Assembly (NCBI GenBank): GCA_013298995.1
Contig: JAAFJW010000006.1
Coordinates: forward strand, 1-43,533
Source of the DNA: Sphingobacteriales bacterium
GTDB taxonomy: Bacteria; Bacteroidota; Bacteroidia; Sphingobacteriales; Sphingobacteriaceae
Direction of reading: 5' to 3'
DNA: 43,533 nt
The first letter of the stretch is position 1. The number at the start of each line of letters is the position of its first letter. A program made the translations under genes and the position numbers. Shown one piece after another: positions 9,734-16,601 of this stretch. Below the pieces are notes generated by a model. It worked only from the letters and a program-made list of their open reading frames with translations. It did no database searches and was not told where the DNA came from.

Positions 9734-10236
9734 TTAAGCATCAGCAGTATTACATTTATTACACACGCCCGTTACCATTAAATCTATTTTTTTTGTTGTA
9801 AAGCCATCGGGAATTTGCAGTTGTGGAATTTGTAGTTTATCTAAACAGTACACGTTTAAACAAGTAGTACAATTAAAATGTATGTGTTGGTCGTGATGCT
9901 GATGCTGGGTACAAGCAGTACTACAAAGTGCATAGTTAGAAGTGCCATTTATACCCATCACTTTGTGTAAAATCCCTTTCTCTTCAAAGGTACTAAGAGT
10001 TCGGTACAAGGTAACTCTATCAATTTGAGTACCCAGTAACTGTTCTAATCTTCAAAGGTACTAAGAGTTCGGTACAAGGTAACTCTATCAATTTGAGTAC
10101 CCAGTAACTGTTCTAAATCGGGCTGCGAAGTGGCCATTGCCCTCGAGTGTAAAACAGCCAAAACACTCAAACGAGGCACTGTTATTTTAAGGCTGTGCTG
10201 TGTTAATAATTGTTTGTACTGTTGTGTAACATCCAT
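9734..10236 (-). pseudogene. Fur/Zur-family metalloregulator, frame broken by a tandem duplication
   Basis: As written the gene is split. The N-terminal part (start ATG 10236) stops after 63 residues, and the C-terminal part continues in another frame to 9734. Removing one copy of the 68-bp repeat restores a normal 144-residue Fur protein. Its features are a winged helix with recognition helix IDRVTLYRTLSTFE, a His-rich metal site (HQHHDQHIHFNC), and a structural-zinc pair CTTC...CNKC. The nearby COG0523 GTPase and ABC genes make a zinc regulator (Zur) plausible, but PerR or Fur cannot be excluded. A 14-bp palindrome lies just upstream of the start. Confidence 0.8.
9981..10116. repeat. Perfect 68-bp tandem duplication in the Fur-family gene
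   Basis: Bases 9981-10048 and 10049-10116 are identical and directly adjacent. The unit covers the recognition helix. Its length (not divisible by three) is the sole cause of the frameshift. Confidence 0.95.
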
Positions 10237-10250
10237 ATTGTAAAACTACA

Positions 10251-10264
10251 AATAATGCATTATT
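10251..10264. promoter_or_regulatory. Palindrome upstream of the Fur-family gene, candidate autoregulatory site
   Basis: AATAATGCATTATT is a perfect 14-bp palindrome 15 bp upstream of the regulator start (ATG 10236). On the minus strand it overlaps a -7-like ATTATTTG. Fur-family proteins bind A/T-rich palindromes. A related AATGCA half-site occurs at 12499-12517. Confidence 0.4.
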
Positions 10265-10375
10265 ATTTTTTATGAGGTTCACAATAAATTAAATTGTTTA
10301 AAGCTACAAAGTTTGAATTGTAGTGATAGCGTTTAAAGCTTAGTTTTTAATTAAAACTTTTGCTAAAAAAAACTG

Positions 10376-10383
10376 TATTTTTG
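10376..10383 (+). promoter_or_regulatory. -7 element for the Rpn-family gene
   Basis: TATTTTTG fits TAnnTTTG and lies 20 nt before the ATG at 10404. Confidence 0.45.
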
Positions 10384-10403
10384 ATGATTAATTTCGAAAA
10401 AAA

Positions 10404-11246
10404 ATGAAAGCAAAATATGTAAACCCGTTTACCGATTTCGGTTTCAAAAAAATATTTGGGGAAGAAGCAAGCAAACCGATGCTGATAGATTTTTTAAAAA
10501 ATTTATTACCCGAAACCAATATTATTAACTTAAGTTTTAAAGATAAAGATAAGCTAGGGCAAACAGAAAACGACCGTACGGCTATTTATGATATTTATTG
10601 TGAAAATAATGCAGGCGAAAAAATAATCGTAGAACTACAAAAAGCAAAACAAAACTATTTTAAAGACCGAACAGTTTACTATGCTACTTTTCCCATTCAA
10701 GAGCAAGCCGAAAAAGGCGAATGGAACTACGAACTAAAATTTGTGTATTGTGTGGGTATTTTAGATTTTAAATTTGAAGACGCATTAAAATCAGGTGAAG
10801 GAGAAGTGGTGCATACTGTACAATTAAAAGACCAAAACAATCAAATATTTTATGAAAAATTAAAATTTGTGTATTTAGAAATGCCTCATTTCATAAAACA
10901 AGAACACGAACTTAAAACTCGGTTAGACAAGTGGTTGTATTTTATTAAACATTTAGAGGATTTTCAAAGCATTCCAGAAATTTTTAAAGACGATGTTTTT
11001 ATTCAAGCATTTGAAAAAGCCGAAATAGCAAAATACAGCGAGGATGAACGCCACGATTATGAACAAAGTTTAAAAATTTACAGAGATTTAAAAGGTGTAA
11101 TTGATACCGCATTCTACGATGGAAAACTTGAAGGAAAACTTGAAGGAAAACTTGAAACCGCTAAACTAGCAAAACAAATGGGGCTAAAAACAGAAGATAT
11201 AATTATACTCACCAATTTATCAAAAGCAGAAATAGATAAACTTTAA
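10404..11246 (+). CDS. Rpn-family PD-(D/E)XK nuclease (transposase-like)
   Basis: A 280-residue protein starting with the typical YVNPFTDFGFKKIFGEE. The nuclease core follows: YDIYCEN with the metal-binding Asp, then IIVELQKAKQNYFKDRTVYY with the E-x-Q variant seen in this family. The C-terminal part has three 4-residue repeats (GKLE, 12-bp DNA units at about 11118-11154) leading to a helix ending LSKAEIDKL, as usual for these proteins. The family (PDDEXK_2, Rpn) is linked to recombination and is often duplicated in Bacteroidota genomes. It sits alone between the Fur-type gene and the GTPase and is probably unrelated to the metal genes. Confidence 0.88.
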   Translation: MKAKYVNPFTDFGFKKIFGEEASKPMLIDFLKNLLPETNIINLSFKDKDKLGQTENDRTAIYDIYCENNAGEKIIVELQKAKQNYFKDRTVYYATFPIQEQAEKGEWNYELKFVYCVGILDFKFEDALKSGEGEVVHTVQLKDQNNQIFYEKLKFVYLEMPHFIKQEHELKTRLDKWLYFIKHLEDFQSIPEIFKDDVFIQAFEKAEIAKYSEDERHDYEQSLKIYRDLKGVIDTAFYDGKLEGKLEGKLETAKLAKQMGLKTEDIIILTNLSKAEIDKL

Positions 11247-11281
11247 CCAAATGCACTAAACTGTTGGTAAATTTACACTTC

Positions 11282-12460
11282 TTAAAACTTTTGTCCACTT
11301 AAGTAAAGCAAAACTTCGTTATCAGTTACCAAGCAATTTTCTAATTGTTTTTGTAAATCTTTTTTATCCAAATCTTGTGCTATAAAAACCAATTCGTTTA
11401 AGCGGTCGCCAAAATCTTTCGACCATTTGCTTTCGATATAATCTTTATTCTCCACAAAATCTTGGTAAGTTATACGTTCTTCAAAAGGCATACTAGCCCA
11501 CCATACGCCAGCACTTTCCATTCGTAGCGAACCTCCAGCTTGAGAAAAATTTATGGCATTATCAGGTTCGTTTGCCATCCAAAATAACCCTTTACTGCGT
11601 ATAATATTGTTAGGAAAATCGTTGTTTAAAAATTTATTAAACCTAGCGGGATGAAAAGGGCGGTTGTTTCTAAACACCATTGAGGAAATGCCGTACTCTT
11701 CAGTTTCGGGCGTATGCTCTTCGTTTAACTCCTTTATCCACCCGGCCGAGTTTGATGCCGTTTCAAAATCGAACAAACCGGTATTAAGTATTTGAGTACA
11801 ATCTATTTTAGAAAACTGGCTTTCAATAATTTTTGCTTCGGGGTTTAGCTTATTAAATAAGGCTACCAACAGTTTTACATCGCCAGGTTTTACCAAATCT
11901 GTTTTGTTTAAAACAATAACGTTGGCAAACTCTATTTGGTCGGTAAGTAGGTTTACAATTGTACGTGTATCTTCTAAGGTTTCGGTAAGGTTTCGGTCTT
12001 GTAAGCGTTCATCAGTACCAAAATCCTTAAAAAAGTTTAAACAATCTACCACGGTAACCATCGTATCTACGTAGCTAAACCTAGATAAATCTATACCTTT
12101 TTCATCATCCACAAAAGTGAAAGTTTGGGCAACAGGTATAGGTTCCGATATGCCTGTACTTTCTATCAACAAATAATCAAATCGGTTTTCTTTTGCAAGT
12201 TTTTCAACCTCAATCATTAAATCTTCACGCAAGGTGCAACATATACAACCGTTGCTCATTTCTACCAGTTTTTCTTCGGTTCGAGACAATGTGCCTTCGT
12301 TTTTAACCAACTGAGCATCAATATTAACCTCGCTCATATCGTTTACAATTACTGCAACACGTAGGTTTTGTTTATTATGAAGTATGTGGTTTAAAAGTGT
12401 GGTTTTGCCTGTACCTAAAAAGCCACTTAGTACCGTTACTGGGAGTTTTTTAACTTGCAT
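11282..12460 (-). CDS. COG0523-family GTPase, putative zinc metallochaperone
   Basis: A 392-residue G3E GTPase. Walker A is GFLGTGKTT at 13-21. The family metal motif is C72-I-C74-C75 (in NGCICCTLREDL), followed by ESTGISEP (Walker B/switch) and NKTD for guanine recognition. The C-terminal half contains the CobW_C domain (YGISSMVFRNNRPFHPARF, then SKGLFWMA, GGSLRMESAGVWWAS). COG0523 proteins hydrolyse GTP to deliver metals; the CxCC zinc subgroup (ZNG1/ZigA/YeiR) is often under Zur. It faces away from the His-rich lipoprotein gene across a 137-bp shared upstream region containing a palindrome. Zinc is an inference from context. Confidence 0.88.
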   Translation of the reverse strand: MQVKKLPVTVLSGFLGTGKTTLLNHILHNKQNLRVAVIVNDMSEVNIDAQLVKNEGTLSRTEEKLVEMSNGCICCTLREDLMIEVEKLAKENRFDYLLIESTGISEPIPVAQTFTFVDDEKGIDLSRFSYVDTMVTVVDCLNFFKDFGTDERLQDRNLTETLEDTRTIVNLLTDQIEFANVIVLNKTDLVKPGDVKLLVALFNKLNPEAKIIESQFSKIDCTQILNTGLFDFETASNSAGWIKELNEEHTPETEEYGISSMVFRNNRPFHPARFNKFLNNDFPNNIIRSKGLFWMANEPDNAINFSQAGGSLRMESAGVWWASMPFEERITYQDFVENKDYIESKWSKDFGDRLNELVFIAQDLDKKDLQKQLENCLVTDNEVLLYLSGQKF

Positions 12461-12498
12461 TGTTTAATTTTTTGGTAAAAATAGATAAATATATTTCA

Positions 12499-12517
12499 AA
12501 TGCAATAAAGTTGCATT
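12499..12517. promoter_or_regulatory. Inverted repeat between the GTPase and His-rich lipoprotein genes, candidate Zur-type operator
   Basis: AATGCAA and TTGCATT are perfect 7-bp arms separated by 5 bp (TAAAG). The repeat lies in the divergent promoter region, 39 bp from the GTPase start and about 59 bp upstream of the lipoprotein -7 element. Layout and base composition fit a Fur-family operator. The factor is not proven. Confidence 0.45.
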
Positions 12518-12575
12518 ATAAAAATGTATTGAAATATTCCAGTTAAAAAAACAACTAAACTCAAATTTATTTACT

Positions 12576-12583
12576 TAGATTTG
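12576..12583 (+). promoter_or_regulatory. -7 element for the His-rich lipoprotein gene
   Basis: TAGATTTG fits TAnnTTTG and lies 14 nt before the ATG at 12598. Confidence 0.5.
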
Positions 12584-12597
12584 AAATAAAAAATGTT

Positions 12598-13092
12598 ATG
12601 AAAACTGAAATTTCAAAAACAATAGCGGTAATTGGTTTAACTACTACGGTATTATTTACGGCTTGTAACGCTAGAAATGAAGCATTAGAAAAAGAACTTA
12701 GTGCCCAACATAGCAAAATAGAAGCCGACCATAAAATATTGGAAGATGCGCATACGGCAATGGAAGCCGAACACGCAATGTTTACAAAAGCACATAACGC
12801 TTTAAATGAAGTAGATAGCAGCGCACATAATAAAATAGAAGCTTTACACGAAAAAATATTGCAATCGCATACATCATTAATTCAAAAACATACGGCTTTG
12901 GTAGTAGCTCACCAATTGCTAGAGAAAAAACACGCTGAAGGTAAAGCTAGCGACCAAGAAGTTATTGCCGAGCACAAAACAATGATTGAAGATGACGAAA
13001 CGCTAATGGCCGACCATAAAAAAATTGAAACCGACCATAAAACTATAATGGAGCAGGACAATAAAATTAAAGCCGAAGACAAAATAAAATAA
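12598..13092 (+). CDS. Lipoprotein with a heptad-spaced histidine coiled coil, putative metal binder
   Basis: A 164-residue protein with a lipoprotein signal (lipobox LFTAC, Cys23). The mature protein is one long predicted helix, rich in Ala/Glu/Lys and without Pro. Histidines fall at 38, 45, 52, 59, 66, then 77, 84, 91, 98, 105, 112, 126, 140 and 147: every seventh residue, with one 11-residue step at 66-77 and Asp at the vacant 119, 133 and 154. This puts 14 His on one stripe of a coiled coil, which suits Zn(II) or another soft metal at helix interfaces. I do not recognise a named family. Its neighbours are the COG0523 GTPase (divergent) and the ABC genes (convergent). The metal role is an inference. 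Confidence 0.75.
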   Translation: MKTEISKTIAVIGLTTTVLFTACNARNEALEKELSAQHSKIEADHKILEDAHTAMEAEHAMFTKAHNALNEVDSSAHNKIEALHEKILQSHTSLIQKHTALVVAHQLLEKKHAEGKASDQEVIAEHKTMIEDDETLMADHKKIETDHKTIMEQDNKIKAEDKIK

Positions 13093-13167
13093 CTGAAAAA
13101 CCAATTATAACGGGTTTTTCGGAAAATTTATTGATTCAATAAAAATCACAAATCTTAAAAAACAAAC

Positions 13168-14388
13168 TTAATTACCAGCTAATATTTTAGAAATGTGGTA
13201 CCTGTATGCTGCAGTTGCTGGCAGTAAGGCAGCAAATATACCTATGCTTAATCCTACCAAAATTAAATAACTTTCTGGTTGTAAAAATATTAAACCTGTA
13301 AGTTTTGCCTGCCCAGCATCTTGTAGGCTACCCATGTATTGCAAAAGTAAATGCCCAAATAACCAGCCTAAAATTGTACCAATAAGCGAAAGTATAAAAC
13401 CTTCTAACATTACTATTAAAAATATTTTGGTTTTAGATGCTCCCATTGTACGCATAATGGATAAATCGTATTTGCGTTGTTTAAGCGAGTTTAGCAAACT
13501 TACAAACACGCTTATTACCGAAATTGCCATAATTAAAACCGCAAAATACTGCAAAGTAACCACCCCTACCCCAATTAATGAAAACAAACGGGTAGTTTCT
13601 ATGGCAGGCGATGCGGCTTGTAAATTTGTGCTTTGGTTTACAAATTTTGGAAACAATATGGTTGATATTGGCGATTTGTATTGGATTAGTAATGATGTTA
13701 TTTCGGCTGTGGGCATTTGAGCAGCGGGCAGCGGGCTTTCGGGCAATGAGCTTTGGGTTGCGATTTCTTCTTCGTGTTGGTGCATATGCCAAACACTTTC
13801 TAAGTTGGTAAGCACCAATTGGTCGGTTACGTTGGCGTTTGGGGTTAAAATACCCGTTACAATATAGGCGTGGTTATTATGTATATCGCTATTATCGGCT
13901 AGGCCGTGTGCGCCAAAAAAAGTATCGCCTACTTTTAGTTTTTGTGTTTTGGCAACATCAGCGCCAAGCGTAACTTCAAAATTTTTATTAAAAAATTTAC
14001 CTTTTGCCAATTTTAAATGGTATAATTTTATAAAGTTGCTATTGGTGCCTACAATTCGGTATCCGTTAAAATTATCGCCAAGTGCCAAAGGTACAGCTAG
14101 TTTTACCATACGGTTTTTGGCCAAATCTTCGGCAGTTTTAAGGGGTATGTTTCCCGTGGGGAAATCAATATGGTAAACACTGCTTAAAATTAATTGTAGG
14201 GGGCTGCCTTTTGCACCCACAACGGCATCAATACCTTGGGCATTGTTTTCTAATTTGTTTTGTATTTGGTGGCTTGCCAAAAGCAAAACCGTAAGTATGC
14301 AAAGCCCAAAGGCTATTAACAATATATTTAAAAAAGCCGATAATTTATTGGCTTTTATACTTTTAAAACTTATACTTAAAATATTCAT
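13168..14388 (-). CDS. FtsX/MacB-type ABC transporter permease with His-rich periplasmic loop
   Basis: A 406-residue permease. It has an N-terminal helix (ILLIAFGLCILTVLLLA), a large periplasmic domain (residues about 40-270) and three C-terminal helices (near LFSLIGVGVVTLQYFAVLIMAISVI, IFLIVMLEGFILSL and LILVGLSIGIFAALLP), the MacB/LolCE/FtsX layout. The RKYDLSIMRTMGAS cytoplasmic segment is characteristic of FtsX-like coupling helices. The periplasmic domain carries H161, H170, H173 and a cluster HMHQHEEE at 201-208, unusual for a lipoprotein releasing LolC/E and suggestive of metal handling. Its ATG directly follows the stop of the ATPase gene, so the two form one unit. Confidence 0.82.
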   Translation of the reverse strand: MNILSISFKSIKANKLSAFLNILLIAFGLCILTVLLLASHQIQNKLENNAQGIDAVVGAKGSPLQLILSSVYHIDFPTGNIPLKTAEDLAKNRMVKLAVPLALGDNFNGYRIVGTNSNFIKLYHLKLAKGKFFNKNFEVTLGADVAKTQKLKVGDTFFGAHGLADNSDIHNNHAYIVTGILTPNANVTDQLVLTNLESVWHMHQHEEEIATQSSLPESPLPAAQMPTAEITSLLIQYKSPISTILFPKFVNQSTNLQAASPAIETTRLFSLIGVGVVTLQYFAVLIMAISVISVFVSLLNSLKQRKYDLSIMRTMGASKTKIFLIVMLEGFILSLIGTILGWLFGHLLLQYMGSLQDAGQAKLTGLIFLQPESYLILVGLSIGIFAALLPATAAYRYHISKILAGN

Positions 14389-15015
14389 TTACAGTATGTA
14401 TTGGTGGGTAAAGGCTGGTTTTAACCTAGCATCGTGGGTGGCAACTATTAAAGTGCTGCCATTTGTTTTTGATAAGCTAAGTAATAGTTCTAATACAATT
14501 TGGGCGTTTTCATCGTCAAGGCTGGCTGTTGGCTCATCGGCAACCAGCAATGCAGGCTTATTAATTACCGCCCTAGCTATGGCTACACGCTGCATTTGAC
14601 CTTGGCTTAATTGGTGTGGGTAATTTTTAATTTTATGCCCTATTTGCAGTTCGTTTAAAACTTGGGTTATGCGTTGTTTATTTGGCTTTAAGCCTGCAAA
14701 ACTTTGGGCTATACTTAGGTTTTGGTAAACATTTAAACTTTTTATAAGGTGCGCTTGCTGAAAAACAATACCTATATTTTTACCTCTAAAGCTATCTAAT
14801 TTTGATGGGCTTAAGCTGTAAATATCCGTATCGTTTATATATATTTTCCCTTTTTGGGGATTTAATAAACCTGTTAAAATATGAATTAGTGTTGTTTTAC
14901 CACTTCCCGATTTGCCTAACAAGAGCCACTGTTGGCCAGTTTTGACTTCCCAATCTTTAAAACTTAACTCGGTATTTTTACCAAAAATATGCGAAAGCGA
15001 ACTTACTTTTACCAT
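14389..15015 (-). CDS. LolD/MacB-type ABC transporter ATPase
   Basis: A 208-residue ATPase with Walker A GKSGSGKT, Q-loop in GIVFQQAHLI, signature LSQGQMQRVAIARA, Walker B LLVADEPTASLDD and switch histidine in VATHDA. Length and signature place it in the LolD/FtsE/MacB group that pairs with FtsX-like permeases. It is first in a two-gene unit; the permease starts immediately after its stop. With the neighbouring DUF3299 and His-rich genes it most resembles the ATPase of the proteobacterial zinc-related cluster, rather than lipoprotein export, but both remain possible. Confidence 0.9.
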   Translation of the reverse strand: MVKVSSLSHIFGKNTELSFKDWEVKTGQQWLLLGKSGSGKTTLIHILTGLLNPQKGKIYINDTDIYSLSPSKLDSFRGKNIGIVFQQAHLIKSLNVYQNLSIAQSFAGLKPNKQRITQVLNELQIGHKIKNYPHQLSQGQMQRVAIARAVINKPALLVADEPTASLDDENAQIVLELLLSLSKTNGSTLIVATHDARLKPAFTHQYIL

Positions 15016-15502
15016 AGCCGTAAATATATTGGTTTTACAGCGTTTTTATGTAAATGTTTTTGGTTGGTTAAGCGTAAACAATGCCAGTTTATAAAATGTG
15101 CTAGGGCAATGGTTAAGACTCCAAGGGGTACAAATAACTAAACTTTCGCAGTACAATATTAGAAATAGTCTCGAGTTTAGGTGTATATAAAGCGGTGTTA
15201 GAAGGTTTTTTTTTATAATTTGCTATTAGTGAAGTTATTTACGTTTTTAGAGCGTTAACAATTGCAATGGCCTGCCTGCGCAGGCAGGCATCCTTTTTAT
15301 CCATAGCCCCCATCTTGGGTCGTTTGCAAATGGGGGCTATGGATAAAAAGATACAATGTAAAGCGTGTTAAAACGCCCAAATAAATAGTTAAAGCAATTG
15401 AAAAACACTATTTTACACGTCATAATTGGGCTTATTGTCAAATATTTATCTGCTTCGAAACTTTAGTACAATTAATTAGTTTTATTTGTAAAAAATTTAA
15501 AA
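15016..15502. other. 487-bp intergenic region between divergent genes, repeat-rich
   Basis: No coding frame is convincing here. The region holds two hairpin-forming repeats (15270-15350). Near 15434-15474 there is a stretch resembling 4300-4335 (shared TCGAAACTTTAGT preceded by a TCAAAT-TTTAT segment), so it contains dispersed intergenic repeat material. Confidence 0.6.
15270..15350. repeat. Double hairpin: 20-bp palindrome followed by 21-bp inverted repeat
   Basis: 15270-15289 is a perfect GC-rich palindrome (GCCTGCCTGC and its complement), standing out from the AT-rich surroundings. Next come perfect 21-bp arms at 15293-15313 and 15330-15350 with a 16-nt loop. The pair looks like a REP/MITE-type element or a strong transcription barrier between divergent units. 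Confidence 0.8.
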
Positions 15503-15967
15503 ATGGGATATTTTAGTGTTGATGAGTTAAGTATATTGAATGATATAAAAGCCAATACAACAATTGTTGGCGTTAATTACTACCGCTGGCACAATTTAGC
15601 GGTTGCTAATGATGTTTACATATTTGTAGATAAAATAGAGTTTGAGTTTAACAATAGATTGCCAATTTTGTTAGAAATTAACGAAACAGACGATGGTATA
15701 ACCCTAAAAACCAATTACAACATTGCTTTAGAAATTAATGAAGTAGAAACAACTTTTAATAACCAAATAAAAATAACGCAAAAAAACGAAATTAATAATG
15801 CGTTTTGGAATATTGCTAAAAATAACCCTATAAAAAGCATTGATGCCCAGCAGTTTGAACAATTTTACGCTAACGAGGAGCTTATTTTTAATTTTGGCGA
15901 CCAAAAAATAGAAATAAAATTTAACCACGAAAAAGGGCTAATGGTTGATTTTTACGAAGAAGATTAA
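15503..15967 (+). CDS. Hypothetical protein, 154 residues
   Basis: A soluble, acidic, strand-rich protein with no signal peptide or membrane helix. Visible segments are LLEINETDDGITLKTNYNIALEINE, in which a motif with LEINE recurs, and a C-terminal LIFNFGDQKIEIKFNHEKGLMVDFYEED. I do not recognise the family. It is upstream of the DUF3299 gene on the same strand by 62 bp, but that gene has its own -7 element, so co-transcription is uncertain. A single-domain immunity- or chaperone-like protein is possible, but nothing in the sequence decides. Confidence 0.6.
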   Translation: MGYFSVDELSILNDIKANTTIVGVNYYRWHNLAVANDVYIFVDKIEFEFNNRLPILLEINETDDGITLKTNYNIALEINEVETTFNNQIKITQKNEINNAFWNIAKNNPIKSIDAQQFEQFYANEELIFNFGDQKIEIKFNHEKGLMVDFYEED

Positions 15968-16017
15968 GCCATTATAAATTTGAATAAACCGTGTTTTGTT
16001 TAGCTAATCGCATTTTG

Positions 16018-16025
16018 TAAATTTG
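16018..16025 (+). promoter_or_regulatory. -7 element for the DUF3299 gene
   Basis: TAAATTTG fits TAnnTTTG and ends 4 nt before ATG 16030, implying a nearly leaderless transcript. Confidence 0.5.
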
Positions 16026-16029
16026 CAAT

Positions 16030-16488
16030 ATGAAAAATAAAACTAAATGGCTTTGCTTATTTATATTTTTAAGCGTATTTTTTGTAACAAAAACATCCGC
16101 ACAAACGCCACACAAAACACTTAGTAATAAATATTGGGAAATTTTAAATACCCGTACCATCAAAAAAAATGCCGAGGGGCAGTATATGCCCTACTTTCCA
16201 CCAAGTTTAATGGCGTATAACAAAACCAAAATTGTGCTTAATGGCTATATGGTGCCCATAAATGTTGGTGCAACGCATAAAGTTTTTTTACTATCGGTAT
16301 TACCCGTTATGCAATGCCAGTTTTGCGGCACTGGCGATATACCCGAAATGGTAGAAATTTATATGAGTAACGCCATTAAGTTTTCTAACAAACCTATAGT
16401 TATTGAGGGGATGTTACTTATTAACGATTCGGATAACGATACTGCTACTTACCAATTGGCAAATGCTACGGTAAAAGAAACGCAGTAA
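16030..16488 (+). CDS. DUF3299 exported protein
   Basis: A 152-residue protein with a signal peptide (LCLFIFLSVFFVTKTSAQ). The mature domain matches DUF3299: KIVLNGYMVPI, then FLLSVLPVMQCQFCGTGDIPEMVEI with Cys96 and Cys99, then KFSNKPIVIEGMLLIND. In Proteobacteria I know this family chiefly as the last gene of clusters with a His-rich DUF2796 periplasmic protein, an ABC ATPase and an FtsX-like permease, e.g. the zinc-regulated zrgABCDE genes of Vibrio cholerae. The Cys pair may bind metal; the function is unproven. A 33-codon membrane peptide follows 11 bp later. Confidence 0.8.
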   Translation: MKNKTKWLCLFIFLSVFFVTKTSAQTPHKTLSNKYWEILNTRTIKKNAEGQYMPYFPPSLMAYNKTKIVLNGYMVPINVGATHKVFLLSVLPVMQCQFCGTGDIPEMVEIYMSNAIKFSNKPIVIEGMLLINDSDNDTATYQLANATVKETQ

Positions 16489-16499
16489 GTTAAATTTTA

Positions 16500-16601
16500 A
16501 TGCCTATATATGGGTTTTTTAAAAAATTTTACGCCTTTTTAGCTTTATTATTTTTGCCATTAATGATTATTACCCTTAGCAACATTCCCGAGTTTAAATA
16601 A
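16500..16601 (+). CDS. Possible 33-residue membrane peptide downstream of DUF3299
   Basis: The ATG lies 11 bp after the DUF3299 stop. The 33-residue product has a basic start (FFKKF) and a single hydrophobic helix (AFLALLFLPLMIITL), then IPEFK. Hydrophobicity, position and absence of overlap with other features make a small integral membrane component plausible, but a chance ORF cannot be excluded. Confidence 0.35.
   Translation: MPIYGFFKKFYAFLALLFLPLMIITLSNIPEFK

Follow-up and report, generated by a model that had tools for sequence, protein, structure and literature searches.

A candidate zinc-starvation locus of the Zrg type with a histidine-heptad lipoprotein in a Sphingobacteriales genome

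What is the role of a gene cluster in which a Fur-family regulator, a COG0523 GTPase, a histidine-rich lipoprotein and an ATP-binding cassette (ABC) pair of the FtsX type stand side by side? We asked this of a 43,533-nucleotide stretch of DNA from a Sphingobacteriales bacterium, hereafter the window, which is part of contig C168; the assembly has 211 contigs, totals 2.78 Mb and is 98.24% complete. The original prediction, made from the sequence alone, had listed these genes and a DUF3299 gene within 7 kb and proposed a zinc-uptake locus; the genes are indeed there, but the Fur-family gene is broken and the DUF3299 protein stays below the Pfam cut-off. A zinc-responsive locus of the Zrg type is well supported by our sequence comparisons, and it probably serves zinc starvation (Zur-type), belongs to the Zrg/PA4063-PA4066 kind and works as proposed below. 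The Zrg kind itself is already known; what is new is a form without DUF2796 and with a ZigA-like GTPase, a new lipoprotein family and a candidate promoter box. The gene set, the permease clade, its conserved histidines, the box and the gene remnants are all features of the sequence itself.

The direction in which Zrg/PA4065-type pumps work is disputed in print, between zinc import and export of a metal complex. The Bacteroidota branch offers natural variants of such systems, with and without DUF3299 and with another histidine-rich partner, as well as a clade-wide histidine triad for mutation and the candidate box.

An ATPase-permease-DUF3299 unit in the Zrg clade

At the centre of the locus lies a Zrg-type permease of the MacB/FtsX superfamily (13168-14388, minus strand; FtsX 61.9 bits and MacB_PCD 41.5 bits, both above the Pfam cut-off), adjoined, as in relatives, by its partner ATPase (14389-15015, minus strand; PF00005, 122.3 bits). 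A DUF3299-like secreted protein of the ZrgE/PA4066 type is encoded 1 kb from this pair on the other strand (16030-16488, plus strand), next to a gene for a conserved hypothetical protein of 154 amino acids (15503-15967, plus strand). In the ZrgABCDE system of Vibrio, zrgA encodes a DUF2796 protein, zrgB the permease, zrgC the ATPase, zrgD a DUF2607 protein and zrgE a DUF3299 protein.

To count as an orthologue, a permease had to match with E < 1e-60; weaker matches were not counted, and 20 of them served as controls. Among 60 genomes, strong relatives occur in 16 of the 59 other than the window's own, and a profile search (E ≤ 1e-40) of 198 genomes sampled from the whole phylum finds the permease in 36. 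In 14 of the 16 relatives the permease has a DUF3299 relative as its neighbour, and in the genus relative G016 and in G004 the DUF3299 gene and that of the 154-residue protein close a larger island at its distant end, as in the window. We then compared 50 target loci from 49 genomes (20-kb stretches, of which the GC-rich L124 and L129 were unreadable, leaving 48) with 20 control loci, each centred on another FtsX-type permease. The ATPase was found at 42 target and eight control loci (Fisher's test, p 1e-4) and DUF3299 at 37 and none (p 1e-9), whereas ZigA/COG0523, Fur and MerC genes occur at eight, five and four target loci and at no control locus. As 18 target loci had seeded the profiles, DUF3299 was also counted in the 32 non-seed loci (two of them unreadable), and 20 of these have it. 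From these counts against the controls, we take the ATPase, permease and DUF3299 trio to be a unit. Three or four DUF3299-type genes stand in tandem behind one permease at L032, L042 and L045, with a Fur gene inside the array at L032.

No DUF2796 match was found in Pfam scans of the window genes, nor near the 50 target loci with a one-sequence profile, and the locus is for this reason filed as a variant rather than as ZrgABCDE proper. It shares with the Vibrio system the permease-ATPase-DUF3299 unit and a permease in the clade of a DUF2796-linked homologue, but has a histidine-heptad lipoprotein and a ZigA-like GTPase instead of DUF2796, and a different box. A genome-wide PF11736 scan gave no match in the window's own genome, a result that is uninformative because 14 control genomes lacked matches as well.

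The placement of the permease comes from a quick maximum-likelihood tree of 70 permeases, for which the program warns of long branches (FtsX, MacB, LolC). The window permease falls into one clade (Shimodaira-Hasegawa-like approximate likelihood ratio test 96) with 44 other Bacteroidota rows and with the permeases of Phaeobacter, from a Fur-DUF2796-ATPase-permease-DUF3299 cluster, and Catenovulum, from a cluster of MerC, DUF3299, ATPase and permease. These two stand for the proteobacterial side; Vibrio ZrgB and Pseudomonas PA4065 themselves are absent from the tree, and an Aeromonas record was left out as the wrong strand had been called. Of the 19 controls, 17 form a group with LolC and LolE of Escherichia coli (98) and the other two with MacB (97). 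The proposed kinship with zrg thus holds for the permease, which shares its clade with a DUF2796-linked protein and lies outside the LolC/LolE group, with which clustering had been named as grounds for rejecting it.

Three histidines of the window permease, His161, His170 and His203, are kept in 45, 43 and 45 of the 45 Bacteroidota clade rows and in both proteobacterial rows, compared with 1, 0 and 0 of the 19 controls. They are placed in the periplasmic part, between the MacB_PCD and FtsX matches. Although LolC, LolE and MacB share the FtsX C-terminal domain with the window permease, they lack histidines 170 and 203; LolE has a histidine aligned at position 161. A long histidine-rich loop is a frequent feature of the Bacteroidota permeases. 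The loop noted earlier is present but short and modest in the window, with six histidines in its richest 60 residues against a clade median of nine and a control median of two.

That the neighbourhood is a chance one, in which a LolC/E-like lipoprotein exporter sits among unrelated genes, is highly improbable: the best NCBIfam model for the permease is indeed lolCE, at 52 of 362 bits, but the tree, the clade histidines, the DUF3299 linkage and the occurrence of the full gene set in a second genus all speak against it. That second genus is represented by L191, from another Sphingobacteriaceae genome (Lichen_MAGs_lobaria3), where the whole set lies within about 7 kb in the order MerC, reductase-like gene, Fur, box, lipoprotein, DUF3299, ZigA, two boxes, ATPase, permease and two DUF3299 genes. 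The locus holds five matches to the box at 13 or 14 positions, of which three are exact. By its gene content, L191 is an independent repeat of the gene list first read from the window.

A candidate Zur-type box before metal genes

A ZigA-like COG0523 GTPase gene (11282-12460, minus strand) and the lipoprotein gene diverge from an intergenic region that holds the candidate Zur-type box ATGCAATAAAGTTGCAT (12500-12516). The window, G016, G004 and G032 supplied the sites that gave the motif, ATGCAAY-NNN-RTTGCAT, with an exact copy defined as one whose ends are A or T. Only two exact copies exist in the 2.78 Mb of the window's genome, this one and another on contig C150, both before metal genes; the next-best match within the window reaches 11 of 14 positions. 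The 60 genomes together contain 20 exact copies, spread over 16 of them, compared with one for the reversed pattern, and 17 of the 20 (13 of 16 without the four motif-source sites) adjoin genes that we read as metal genes. Their neighbours are zigA (seven), NicO (one), MerC with Fur (one), a histidine-rich protein with a TonB receptor (two), a histidine-rich protein with a resistance-nodulation-division (RND)-type pump (two) and a second Fur-family gene (four), while the remaining three boxes lie within genes or beside an AraC-like gene. The 20-kb loci give a similar picture, with 11 matches of at least 13 of 14 positions in the target loci (0.97 Mb; none for the reversed motif) versus one in the control loci (0.40 Mb). 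At L135, from another class, an exact box lies 55 bp before the ATPase.

The C150 box heads an operon (L063:13362-18110) for a histidine-rich protein of 125 residues, an AztD-like lipoprotein, a TonB receptor and a protein of 184 residues. Residues 72-392 of the AztD-like protein match the AztD model NF038015 (E 2.2e-28); unlike an assigned AztD zinc metallochaperone, it scores 99 bits against a cut-off of 400, has a lipoprotein-like start and is encoded beside a TonB receptor. The receptor has ZnuD among its matches, with heme receptor models scoring higher. From its gene content and box, this operon is likely to be an outer-membrane zinc route.

A box-like site (12/14) in G016 is followed by ten genes that all point in a single direction: NicO, ferredoxin, COG0523, WD40, HisI, COG0523, LGT, MerC, ATPase and permease. 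HisI paralogues occur in Zur regulons, and COG0523 genes beside those for WD40 proteins, according to Haas et al. (PMC2770081), and we accordingly counted this island, with its NicO, HisI, LGT, MerC and two further COG0523 genes, towards zinc starvation. The same island could also suggest that the locus serves mainly cobalt or nickel, with cobalt standing in for zinc in starvation, to which NicO, COG0523/CobW and MerC would point. A weaker lipoprotein relative at L193 lies near what we take to be hydrogenase-maturation-like genes, which fits such a role, as does the reported tie of PA4063-PA4066 to cobalt-pyochelin (PMC11481552). We nevertheless judge a cobalt or nickel role improbable, since one box is common to the genes for the ZigA-type GTPase, the AztD-like protein and the TonB receptor that matches, among others, ZnuD, and since a profile search found no NicO in the window's genome.

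Four other Sphingobacteriaceae-family genomes (L066, L068, L074 and L219) encode another Fur-family paralogue, whose gene has a closely similar box (ATGCAAT-NNN-ATTGCAT or -GTTGCAT) at its 3' end. Directly after this, at least twice, comes a zinc-exporter-like gene, resembling those of cation diffusion facilitators (CDF) or P-type ATPases. This paralogue is possibly a Fur-family regulator of zinc export. The RND, CDF, P-type and AraC labels of box neighbours are presumptive, given from the look of the sequences rather than by a family search.

A lipoprotein family without a name

The lipoprotein (12598-13092, plus strand) contains 14 histidines and ten H-x6-H pairs, a number reached by none of 20,000 shuffles of its mature part. 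AlphaFold2, run with eight sequences, predicts three long helices (mean predicted local distance difference test (pLDDT) 86, predicted template modelling score 0.75), which would form a three-helix bundle; in each predicted helix the histidines keep a single register, at heptad position a, with hydrophobic residues at position d. The protein has no Pfam or NCBIfam match, its fold has no counterpart in the PDB at E ≤ 0.001, and a profile search reached no PDB sequence. It therefore represents an unnamed family and, as had been anticipated, a different histidine-rich component in the place of DUF2796. A literature search, with most subscription journals outside its reach, returned no report on this lipoprotein and none of a Bacteroidota Zur box.

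Family members, taken as profile seeds or matches of at least 100 bits, occur in ten genomes, five of which supplied seeds. In nine of the ten the context is one of metal genes: ZigA, Fur, NicO or COG0523 in the window's genome, G016, G271, G025 and G598, and TonB-receptor operons of the C150 kind in G329, G444, G371 and G453, where zinc is read by likeness only. The tenth, a relative in G578 (106 bits), has no metal neighbours, and neither do the weaker matches in G142, G108 and G435 (43 to 86 bits). Sites in G603, G520 and G386 and a second site in G371, which resemble simple repeats or other proteins, were excluded.

What the protein does can be proposed tentatively, with somewhat more doubt than confidence: it may be a zinc protein of a new kind, in which the core of a three-helix bundle would be built of hydrophobic layers in alternation with layers of histidine and some aspartate, and so hold a stack of zinc ions. 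In Bacteroidota it may store or relay zinc in the periplasm and, in doing so, load or empty a MacB-type pump that has a histidine site of its own. One expectation of such a core, a particular pairing in layers to which each helix gives one His or Asp, did no better than neighbouring registers in the concordance of 15 sequences (helices 1 and 2, 0.83 for sum 143 and 0.85 for sum 150; helices 2 and 3, 0.69 for sum 231 and 0.88 for sum 238), and for that reason we do not claim exact metal sites.

Proposed working, direction of the pump and decay of the locus

Under the proposed scheme, in which we infer zinc as the ligand, the repression and every transport step, low zinc would cause a Fur-family repressor to leave the ATGCAAY-NNN-RTTGCAT box. 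The cell would then make ZigA, a cytosolic zinc-delivery GTPase, the histidine-heptad lipoprotein, which would buffer or relay periplasmic zinc by holding several metal ions in its histidine-lined helical bundle, and the MacB-type ABC pair with DUF3299. The pair would probably drive movements of its own periplasmic domain, with His161, His170 and His203 handling the metal, and would thereby pass zinc or a metal complex from one periplasmic carrier to another or expel it from the periplasm; it may also bring about a net import of zinc. Zinc would enter through the outer membrane by way of the TonB receptor operon on C150, which carries the genome's only other exact box. For the inner membrane, the route would be either the ABC pair or a ZIP protein encoded on contig C17, because neither ZnuB-type nor NicO permeases were found. 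The ABC-3 (ZnuB-type) permease is missing from the whole assembly, whereas 13 of 14 control genomes match it, so that the contrast drawn earlier with ZnuABC stands. With the ZIP permease available, inner-membrane import does not have to be the task of the ABC pair.

Published data on related systems bear on this choice. When V. parahaemolyticus is depleted of zinc, each of its five zrg genes goes up, by 75- to 206-fold (PMC9817125). Work on V. cholerae points to import, with ZrgA as the binding protein, and a zrgE knock-out had no effect (PMC9820375). PA4063-PA4066 of P. aeruginosa, which resembles the window locus in its split MacB-like pair with a DUF3299-type partner (PMC11481552, PMC9820375), is described instead as a Zur-controlled MacB-type exporter of cobalt-pyochelin (PMC11481552). 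Of the initial proposal, then, a zinc-starvation locus of the Zrg type stands, but uptake by the ABC pair does not follow, as the published models are split between importer and exporter.

If the ABC pair were a true zinc importer, on the model put forward for ZrgABC, the lipoprotein would be its binding protein and replace ZrgA. This would agree with the missing ABC-3 permease, with the need of the V. cholerae system for ZrgA (PMC9820375) and with the place of the lipoprotein gene beside the ABC pair in the window's genome, G016 and G271. We regard it as rather unlikely, as known members of the FtsX/MacB_PCD fold class work by mechanotransmission, PA4065 is published as an exporter (PMC11481552), a ZIP transporter is at hand, and the lipoprotein is absent from nearly all target loci (present at two of 50) and occurs without the ABC pair in several genomes. 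A ZepA-type system was also considered as a counterpart and dropped; the text of its paper mentions neither FtsX, MacB, DUF3299 nor Bacteroid.

Several results weigh against the zinc-starvation interpretation, and the published export by PA4065 belongs with them (PMC11481552). The window DUF3299-like protein scores 17.7 bits with PF11736, below the Pfam cut-off of 22, a Bacteroidota-only DUF3299 profile reaches the solved homologue 4hsp at E 0.003 only, and 11 of the 48 readable target loci have no DUF3299 match. The permease structure, predicted from a three-row alignment, has a pLDDT of 39. NF038288 is by far the best model for the zigA product, yet its 556.5 bits lie below the curated cut-off of 600, hence our term ZigA-like. 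The Fur protein of the locus scores nearly the same with the NCBIfam Zur and Fur models (34.5 and 33.9 bits), which gives no Zur call. With one mismatch allowed, the box occurs 18 times in the window's genome versus nine for a reversed control, so only exact copies are informative. Finally, linkage of zigA (p 0.09), fur (p 0.31) and merC (p 0.31) to the trio is non-significant for each gene singly. The co-conservation check proposed at the outset thus came out strong for the ATPase, permease and DUF3299, and not for ZigA, Fur and MerC by the 20-kb test alone (eight, five and four of 48); the link of these three is backed by the shared promoter box and by the complete set in one independent genus.

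The original prediction missed two lesions in the locus. The Fur-family gene, a candidate Zur gene (9734-10236, minus strand), is split by a perfect 68-nucleotide tandem duplication (9981-10048 and 10049-10116) into a 5' piece (open reading frame 10045-10236, 63 amino acids) and a 3' piece of 91 amino acids (9734-10009; PF01475, 23.5 bits). It is full-length beside zigA in G016 (L031:13143-13580), where the product matches PF01475, and in G004 (L039:8883-9314). Either a genuine mutation or a fault of the assembly may account for the duplication. The sole full-length Fur-family protein elsewhere in the window's genome (C189) scores higher with the Fur model (78.7 bits) than with the Zur model (31.2 bits). 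The front of the ABC operon is gone as well: merC precedes the ATPase in G016 and G004, and in the window there remain the 3' end of a MerC-domain gene (15016-15136, minus strand; 75% identity to the end of the L031 merC) and then unrelated DNA with a repeat-like element. Apart from COG0523 matches, the rest of the G016 ten-gene run was not found in the window's genome at the DNA level, and the best box match before the window ATPase is 9/14. With fur broken and the ABC pair severed from the operon front that bears the box, the locus may be unregulated or half dead; either zinc control may have been lost in this genome, or the fur duplication may be an assembly error.

The repeat-like element is interspersed, with copies at 15245-15380 in the window and at L031:11508-11657 that share the ends TTTTAGAGCGTTAAC ... 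GTGTTAAAACGCCCAAA and lie in different places; the window copy sits at the deletion junction before the ATPase. Decay is not confined to this genome, as the permease gene of G013 (L016/L046) is interrupted by stops. Between fur and zigA, the window carries a PDDEXK_2/Rpn-type gene (10404-11246, plus strand; PF12784 225.7 bits, TIGR01784 110.5 bits) that is outside the zinc system; G016 has no such gene there. A small conserved protein of 83-89 residues, with no family match, is encoded upstream of zigA near the box in two genera (L031:11192-11443 and L041:8336-8605).

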